Shown here: in pieces, positions 27,221-28,522 of the stretch | How positions within the stretch are numbered: the first letter of the stretch is position 1 | Layout: every line of letters begins with the position of its first letter | Source of the DNA: Microbacterium sulfonylureivorans | Lineage (GTDB): Bacteria; Actinomycetota; Actinomycetes; Actinomycetales; Microbacteriaceae | Direction of reading: 5' to 3' | DNA: 64,000 nucleotides | NCBI RefSeq assembly: GCF_003999995.1 | Contig: NZ_RJAD01000001.1 | Location: 1 to 64,000 of the forward strand | Notes under the pieces: model-generated | The model's input: the letters and a program-made list of their open reading frames with translations, nothing else | What the model was told of the DNA's origin: nothing | Database searches by the model: none | Program-made: the position numbers and the translations under genes

Positions 27221-27853
<633 letters not shown>

Positions 27854-27858
27854 GCGGA

Positions 27859-28085
27859 ACTCCTCTTTCATGCGGATGTCGGCCACCGCGACACATGGGG
27901 CGTGACGCGGGCTGAAAGAGGAGTCATTCCACCCGCTCGGCGCTCGAGCGCCGGCTTCTGCACCCTGTCGTCGTTCGCGGTTCCCCGCTCGCGATCGCCT
28001 ACCCCGATCGCAGTGCGGTCGGGGCGGAGTGCGTGACCCGGTAGCCTGGAACGGCAAGCGCGGGTGGGATGTGATCCTCTTTCGG
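27859..28085 (-). promoter_or_regulatory. infC mRNA leader with SD / anti-SD / anti-anti-SD arms
   Basis: On the minus strand, arm 3 TGAAAGAGGAGT (27870..27859) contains the infC ribosome-binding site and is perfectly complementary over 12 bases to arm 2 ACTCCTCTTTCA (27924..27913). Arm 1 GAAAGAGGATCA (28083..28072), a near copy of arm 3, can pair with the same arm 2 over 9 plus 3 bases with one bulged C. The two pairings exclude each other, so the leader can either hide or expose the ribosome-binding site. Further hairpins occur between them: a 10-base stem at 28002-28024 and a 14-base palindrome at 27939-27952. Confidence 0.75.
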
Positions 28086-28115
28086 TCCGGTGCAGAACGC
28101 ACCGAAGCCCGCACA

Positions 28116-28121
28116 AGTCTA
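28116..28121 (-). promoter_or_regulatory. Candidate -10 element of the infC operon
   Basis: TAGACT, about 263 bases before the infC start, would begin transcription near 28109 and include the entire leader with all three arms. No clear -35 was found. Confidence 0.45.
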
Positions 28122-28135
28122 GCAGAGAGAAGCGC

Positions 28136-28522
28136 GTGACCACGATTCCGGCCTCCGACGACGACCGCCACGCACGCTGGGAGGAGCAGGAGCGCGCCGC
28201 CTCGGCCGCGACCCGCGACATCGCCGATGTTCCCGCCGTCGAAGTGATCACCACCGCAGCGGTGCACCTCATGAGCGCCGCGGCCGTCAAGGTGGGCCTC
28301 GCCGACGACCCTGCGGCCCAGACCGACCTCGACGAGGCGCGCAAGCTCATCAACGCCCTCGCCGGTCTCATCACGGCGGGTGCGCCGGAGATCAGCGACA
28401 TGCACGCGCGCTCGCTGCGCGACGGCCTCCGGTCGCTTCAGCTCGCGTTCCGCGAGGCGTCGGTGATCCCCGATCCGATCGGCAAGGGCCCGGGCGAGAA
28501 GTGGACCGGTCCGGTCAACTGA
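28136..28522 (+). CDS. DUF1844 domain protein
   Basis: 128 residues. The core [20 protein letters not shown] (residues about 31-50) and the following VKVGLADDP and [13 protein letters not shown] are typical of DUF1844, a small helical family of unknown function often found next to infC in actinobacteria. The start is GTG 28136, preceded by AGAGAGAA. It is divergent from infC and overlaps the convergent decarboxylase by eight bases. Confidence 0.85.

Follow-up and report, generated by a model that had tools for sequence, protein, structure and literature searches.

What controls the infC operon of Microbacterium sulfonylureivorans, and which molecule does its leader respond to? The window, i.e., the whole 64,000-nt stretch of DNA analysed here, carries on its minus strand infC for initiation factor IF3 (27853..27221; Pfam IF3_N and IF3_C), followed by rpmI for ribosomal protein L35 (27149..26955; PF01632) and rplT for L20 (26925..26542; PF00453), the proposed source of the ligand, and its closest infC relatives carry Microbacterium labels. 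As of 2021, almost no information on r-protein control in Actinobacteria was available, according to an excerpt of PMC8470358, and this leader offers a defined class-wide candidate for such control, with a core, a partner and a ligand that can be tested. An earlier note had described three arms in the leader, and each of them was read exactly where it had been placed: arm 1, GAAAGAGGATCA, at 28083..28072, arm 2, the anti-Shine-Dalgarno (anti-SD) arm ACTCCTCTTTCA, at 27924..27913, and the infC Shine-Dalgarno (SD) arm TGAAAGAGGAGT at 27870..27859, all on the minus strand. AGGAG in the SD arm is invariant across 42 aligned Microbacterium leaders. The perfect complementarity of arm 2 to the SD arm over 12 nt also held; the 240-nt leader contains no longer perfect match to the complement of the 20-nt SD region, and this length is well above chance, with 300 mononucleotide shuffles reaching at most 9 nt (mean 5.4). 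We conclude that the observation is real, wider than first reported and in part to be reinterpreted, and that the leader is probably L20-responsive.

The main reinterpretation concerns arm 1, which had been taken for a near-copy of the SD and is mainly the 5' strand of a structured element found throughout the class. This conserved, aptamer-like core of about 50 nt (28084-28034, minus strand) is supported by a covariance model and by class-wide covariation, which define helix A (28079 and 28077-28074 with 28070-28066) and helix B (28065-28061 with 28040-28036), and it encloses a variable inner hairpin. The pattern AAG-N-GGAG...CUCCCACC-YG...CGGGU is recognisable across many genera, in 103 of the 110 loci, and of the seven loci without it the covariance model matches six at E<=0.01 and the last, L070, at 0.056. 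Among aligned Microbacterium leaders GAAAGAGGATCACATCCCACCCG...CCGGGT is nearly invariant; the 5' strand of the core reads GAAAGAGG in most Microbacterium as well as in Curtobacterium and Agrococcus, and GCAAGCGGAG or GAAAGTGGAG in many other genera. The collecting patterns require CGGGT and leave AAG-GG and TCCCACC hardly any freedom, thus invariance at these places is partly by construction, and an alignment of 97 cores gathered by the model is fairer in this respect than the 66-core alignment collected by pattern. The first covariance model (R1) was built from 66 distinct cores out of the 68 that were parsed (all except L035 and L103) and detected the core in the genome of the window with 63.2 bits and an E of 1.4e-12. 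No second core, e.g., at infA, was found in this genome with R1, whose next match had an E of 7.6, whereas homology between the infA and infC UTRs is reported for M. tuberculosis in the extract of PMC3207917.

In the class Actinomycetes, infC was present in 113 of 118 genomes, and 109 leaders were examined after the exclusion of four partial infC genes. The core occurs in 101 of these 109, i.e., 72 of 79 and 27 of 28 leaders at E<=0.01, the window, and L107 by pattern. The class leaders for the model search were chosen regardless of the motif, all 72 best matches among the 79 leaders lie on the infC strand when checked by hand, and the only miss in the 28-leader set sits at a contig end. A second model, built from the class matches, finds weaker copies in most of the remaining class leaders (L220, L237, L238, L241, L253, L255, L259, L257 and L263; E values from 6e-5 up to 0.04) and gives no match in L256. 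Outside the class, the core was detected at E<=0.1 in seven of 28 leaders with intact operons, two of which (G113 and G156, both among the seven) had been chosen with a match already known. A scan of 149 genomes of the phylum with the core model returned 27 matches at E<=0.1, where about 15 are expected by chance; 10 of the 27 precede infC.

Comparison across the class shows both the core and its pairing. Across the 97 model-aligned cores from the whole class, 99.7% of the cells are paired in both helices compared with 36-64% in slid controls, the alignment being fitted to the structure and therefore biased toward pairing. It represents 97 of 100 sources, with seven weak members of the 79 leaders excluded (L220, L237, L238, L241, L253, L255 and L259). 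Two-sided changes affect three pairs in 11 cells (G-C to A-U; G-C to C-G or U-A; C-G to G-C or U-A), and none of 500 shuffles reached the observed covariation on any of five measures, a statistic that ignores kinship. The inner loop is predicted to be nearly always a hairpin with changing sequence, as the 148 distinct loops fold with a mean of -7.3 kcal/mol against -4.1 kcal/mol when shuffled, and 140 of them fold better than the median of their own shuffles.

A -10-like box TAGACT at 28121..28116 marks the putative infC promoter with a transcription start expected near 28109 (minus strand), and in Microbacterium every leader looked at (43 of 43) has a TARRCT box that begins 35-42 nt ahead of the AAAG in arm 1; therefore the infC transcript probably includes arm 1. 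Just past the expected start, a hairpin TTCGGTGC...GCACCGGA (28106..28086, minus strand) appears in both the minimum free energy (MFE) and the centroid fold, and by eye similar hairpins are present in leaders of Microbacteriaceae. Another hairpin, GCCCGCG...CGCGG (27912..27886, minus strand), occupies the interval between the anti-SD and SD arms in MFE folds of Microbacterium leaders.

The pairing of arm 1 with arm 2, described earlier as 9 + 3 bases, was confirmed, and its extent had been understated: the strands 28084-28061 and 27936-27913, 24 nt each, form a 19-pair duplex of -29.4 kcal/mol. The second of these strands is the anti-core GCGGGTGGAATGACTCCTCTTTCA (27936-27913, minus strand), which encloses arm 2 and could pair either with the 5' strand of the core or, via its 3' half, with the SD. 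In 42 Microbacterium leaders, the core pairs with its own anti-core at -26.7 kcal/mol, with that of other species at -25.7 (0 of 3000 permutations reached the own value) and with shuffled arms at -14.3 +/- 0.48, and a control region further upstream yields -11.4. The anti-core lies about 79 nt before the start codon, within -100..-55 in 41 of the 42. The competition between arm 1, arm 2 and the SD that had been proposed thus finds support, with arm 1:arm 2 kept across the 42 Microbacterium leaders and arm 2:SD conserved in relatives only in part. With an arm 1 of 14 nt, pairing had not been specific to the species (4916 of 5000 permutations equalled or surpassed the own value), but that test was too narrow, and the predicted pairing is clear with the full 24-nt core strand. 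The signal is weaker in the other Microbacteriaceae (n=31), with -16.2 against -13.1 +/- 0.55 for shuffled arms and the anti-core at its expected place in 18 of 31; the -150..-100 region is not a valid control here because some leaders are too short.

Beyond this family, the equivalent of arm 2 belongs to a different candidate OFF element. Out of 98 parsed leaders from outside Microbacteriaceae, 60 carry an intrinsic terminator of -14 kcal/mol or better, and in these 60 the 5' arm of the terminator corresponds to arm 2 and is largely complementary to the 5' strand of the core. The pairing averages -15.1 kcal/mol with the own arm and -13.5 with the arms of other species (0 of 2000 permutations reaching the own value), while shuffled arms gave -8.7 +/- 0.33 and the 3' arm -6.7 kcal/mol. 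In 44 of the 60 the terminator 5' arm is also the best complementary window of the downstream leader, where 6.8 would be expected. Therefore, the core and the terminator can coexist, and the antiterminator, in which the terminator arm is taken up by the 5' strand of the core, excludes both. Terminator-like hairpins occur in 27 of 35 other named Micrococcales and Actinomycetales (8, 10 and 9 in shuffles) and in 41 of 69 class leaders (17, 13 and 13). Terminators are not evident in Microbacterium, where such hairpins were found in 8 of 43 leaders (shuffles 2, 2 and 4), none of the eight with four T in a row, nor in other Microbacteriaceae (6 of 32; shuffles 7, 1 and 5).

These observations lead us to propose, as the likely explanation, a class-wide leader switch in which a core stabilised by L20 frees the anti-core to form an OFF element. 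The 5' part of the transcript would fold into the compact two-helix core. With no ligand, the anti-core would pair with the 5' strand of the core and destroy it, leaving expression ON; L20 present in excess over rRNA would stabilise the core, presumably by direct binding, and leave the anti-core free. The free anti-core would then enter the OFF element, which in many genera of the class would be the intrinsic terminator and, in M. sulfonylureivorans and some of its relatives, a helix hiding the infC SD. Of this scheme, the core with its helices, the anti-core pairing and the terminators are backed by comparison between genomes. The form of the leader in the window appears from its sequence to act on translation through SD hiding and not on termination; many relatives seem to stop transcription, and M. 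sulfonylureivorans seems to hide the ribosome-binding site instead. This could represent a case of one RNA sensor whose output has changed between related families.

The signal had been left between L20, IF3 and the state of the ribosome, and genomes with a split operon narrow this choice. Six of the 149 phylum genomes, picked by eye, have infC and rplT apart, and the regions upstream of both were examined. The core pattern is located upstream of rpmI-rplT in three of them (L265, L267 and L271), whereas none of the six has it upstream of infC; of 400 shuffle sets, 0 contained as many as three; therefore L20 (or L35) is favoured over IF3, and the element appears to go with rpmI-rplT. Scores of the core model at split operons are weak (E 0.03, 0.036 and 0.17), and three of the genomes (G172, G183 and G194) belong to one family, so that the independent split events are few. 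The infC leader of G172 has a doubtful match on each strand (E 0.34), and no core was found in L269 (G183) and L275 (G111). By eye, the core in L273 is divergent (CCGCC) and is followed by a hairpin with a U tail, the 5' arm of which is the best anti-core window, the best anti-core window is likewise the 5' arm of a downstream hairpin in L267 and L271, and no downstream hairpin with an anti-core arm was identified in L265.

The same switch driven by IF3 or by the state of initiation would fit the position of infC as the first gene of the operon and its start codon, which is ATC in 87 and ATT in 23 loci, i.e., in 110 of 110 together; the window has ATC (27853..27851), one of the two codons, AUU and AUC, associated with IF3 autocontrol. 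Autocontrol through such a codon is described for E. coli and an ATC start for Streptomyces in the extract of PMC5472188. This signal is nevertheless unlikely given the split genomes, and control at the start codon would not need a structured leader; the AUC start leaves room for a separate autocontrol of infC by IF3. An assignment of the ligand to L35, the rpmI product, draws on the same segregation data, which cannot separate the two proteins since rpmI precedes rplT in all six split regions. We know of no L35 repressor. The extract of the review PMC10931766 names just IF3 and L20 as regulators of these genes, and we regard L35 as quite an improbable ligand.

We infer that L20 is the ligand also from its known role. 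According to extracts of PMC10931766 and PMC6097659, L20 is the repressor of infC-rpmI-rplT in B. subtilis; in E. coli it represses rpmI-rplT, and its control does not act on infC (PMC10931766). The element described here is located in the leader of an operon encoding L20 and, judged by sequence, offers alternative structures with an OFF element. According to an extract of PMC7247131, two consecutive G-C pairs and an AA dimer are retained in L20 r-leaders; the aligned cores have an invariant AA and invariant G-C pairs. In an L20-responsive leader such features would mimic the L20 site of 23S rRNA. The E. coli rpmI-rplT operator and the Deltaproteobacteria L20 motif, both among the closest known systems, have scaffolds other than that of the core. 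The resemblance of the window core to its own 23S rRNA was not above that of shuffles, 175 of 200 of which scored as high (79 for an Arthrobacter core and 16 for a consensus made by eye).

How far SD hiding extends bears on the original proposal of a stand-alone three-arm translational attenuator. A perfect SD complement of 12 nt in the window and in L099, and of 11 nt in L082, speaks for it, and so do L088 and six relatives, in which SD exposure is 0.00 with the core forced and 0.40-0.47 with GGGUGG:CCACCC forced. Translational attenuation is not general, however: an SD:arm 2 pairing of at least 7 contiguous pairs is present in 17 of 42 Microbacterium leaders (raw count) and absent from 25, and the 60 leaders outside Microbacteriaceae have a terminator arm in its place. 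Moreover, arm 1 is part of a core found across the class that in many genera has the arm of a terminator as its partner, and this makes a stand-alone device very unlikely. The arm 2:SD pairing exceeds that of shuffled arms (-10.9 vs -9.0 +/- 0.43) but hardly beats the partners of other species (227 of 5000 permutations), and the best SD partner window is also the best core partner window in 12 of the 42. A long anti-SD is missing in the 12 Microbacterium leaders with the SD GTCTAAGGAG (L009-L011, L015, L101-L105, L107, L108 and L110), in five of which arm 2 pairs with the bases immediately upstream of the SD.

The direction of control was approached by folding. At equilibrium the SD of the window leader is hidden in both states, therefore control in the window would have to be kinetic. 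Forced-state folding agrees with the OFF model in L088 and its six relatives; over 42 Microbacterium leaders (L087 excluded; L096 repeats L005) it gave no single sign, as forcing the core reduced SD exposure by more than 0.1 in 17 leaders and raised it in 10. Of the two states, GGGUGG:CCACCC costs less than the core in 32 of the 42 (mean cost 1.3 kcal/mol against 3.9), which is what a core dependent on a ligand would lead one to expect. A kinetic switch operating during transcription would reconcile these folding results with the OFF model, and we infer its sign from this model.

Among the closest known systems is the B. subtilis L20 leader (RF00558), which follows the same logic and shares the operon, the position upstream of infC and a terminator expected in the ligand-bound, repressed state; the extract of PMC6097659 states that L20 binding stabilises the terminator. 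The window differs from it in that its output appears to be SD hiding rather than termination and in that the RF00558 model has no match at E<=10 in the window genome (of 14 control genomes, 2 scored over its cut-off). A scan of the window against Rfam gave no match at the gathering score and unrelated weak ones at E<=10. RF02830 (Scr1601) matches four of 20 class infC leaders scanned with 153-184 bits (E 1e-32 to 1e-39), and one more at 22.5 bits. The four (L205, L207, L211 and L213) belong to one large-genome genus, which is identified as Streptomyces because of this match. The RF02830 model includes the core and ends on the U-run of the terminator; the window core is homologous to part of the model, and the window itself is not matched (gathering score 100 bits). 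The element would work like an L20 attenuator; it is outside RF00558, and the window is outside RF02830 as curated.

Scr1601 is filed as a Streptomyces sRNA gene. A trans-acting sRNA whose position before infC is incidental, as suggested by the sRNA typing of RF02830 in Rfam and by an extract of PMC8388888, in which scr1601 is one of 11 ncRNAs whose expression in S. coelicolor was confirmed, is hardly credible considering that the position before infC is kept across the class and the element precedes rpmI-rplT in three split genomes, that the core:terminator-arm pairing is what an attenuator requires, and that in S. ambofaciens the homologue lies within a UTR according to the same extract. An attenuator would be expected to yield a discrete RNA with its end at the Scr1601 terminator, which suggests that what is filed as a Streptomyces sRNA is the attenuated leader of an mRNA. 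RF02830, whose place is that of the infC leader with its terminator, is a candidate for reclassification as cis-regulatory. We lean towards the broader hypothesis that one previously unrecognised family of L20 leaders governs infC-rpmI-rplT, or rpmI-rplT alone, throughout Actinomycetes, that Scr1601 is its terminated product, and that Microbacteriaceae swapped the terminator for an SD-sequestering arm with the anti-core kept, which would have moved the output from transcription to translation. No description of the structure of an actinobacterial infC leader was found among the titles and abstract openings that literature searches returned. The M. tuberculosis infC 5' UTR is long (326 nt) and abundant, with UTR/CDS signal ratios of 2.6 and 4.9 (PMC3207917, Arnvig 2011), and the extract of that paper gives no structure or ligand for it.

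Several minor observations concern single loci and neighbouring genes. Reading the ATC that follows arm 1 as belonging to a leader peptide was rejected, since leaders of the L009 type do not preserve this codon, as judged by eye. The locus L007 (JACEFY010000097.1), titled Stenotrophomonas maltophilia, has an infC and a leader of the Microbacterium type with 91% IF3 identity and is probably a contaminant contig. The label of L049 (NZ_KL537414.1), Curtobacterium sp. S6, looks doubtful; its IF3 identity is 73%, and its leader is of the terminator type and resembles that of the Rothia locus L050. In the window, a DUF1844 gene (28136-28522, plus strand; Pfam on the ORF 28064-28519) is divergent from infC and probably begins with the GTG at 28136, some 15 nt away from the -10 box of infC, and by eye a DUF1844-like reading frame also lies before rpmI-rplT in the split-operon regions L265, L267, L269 and L273.
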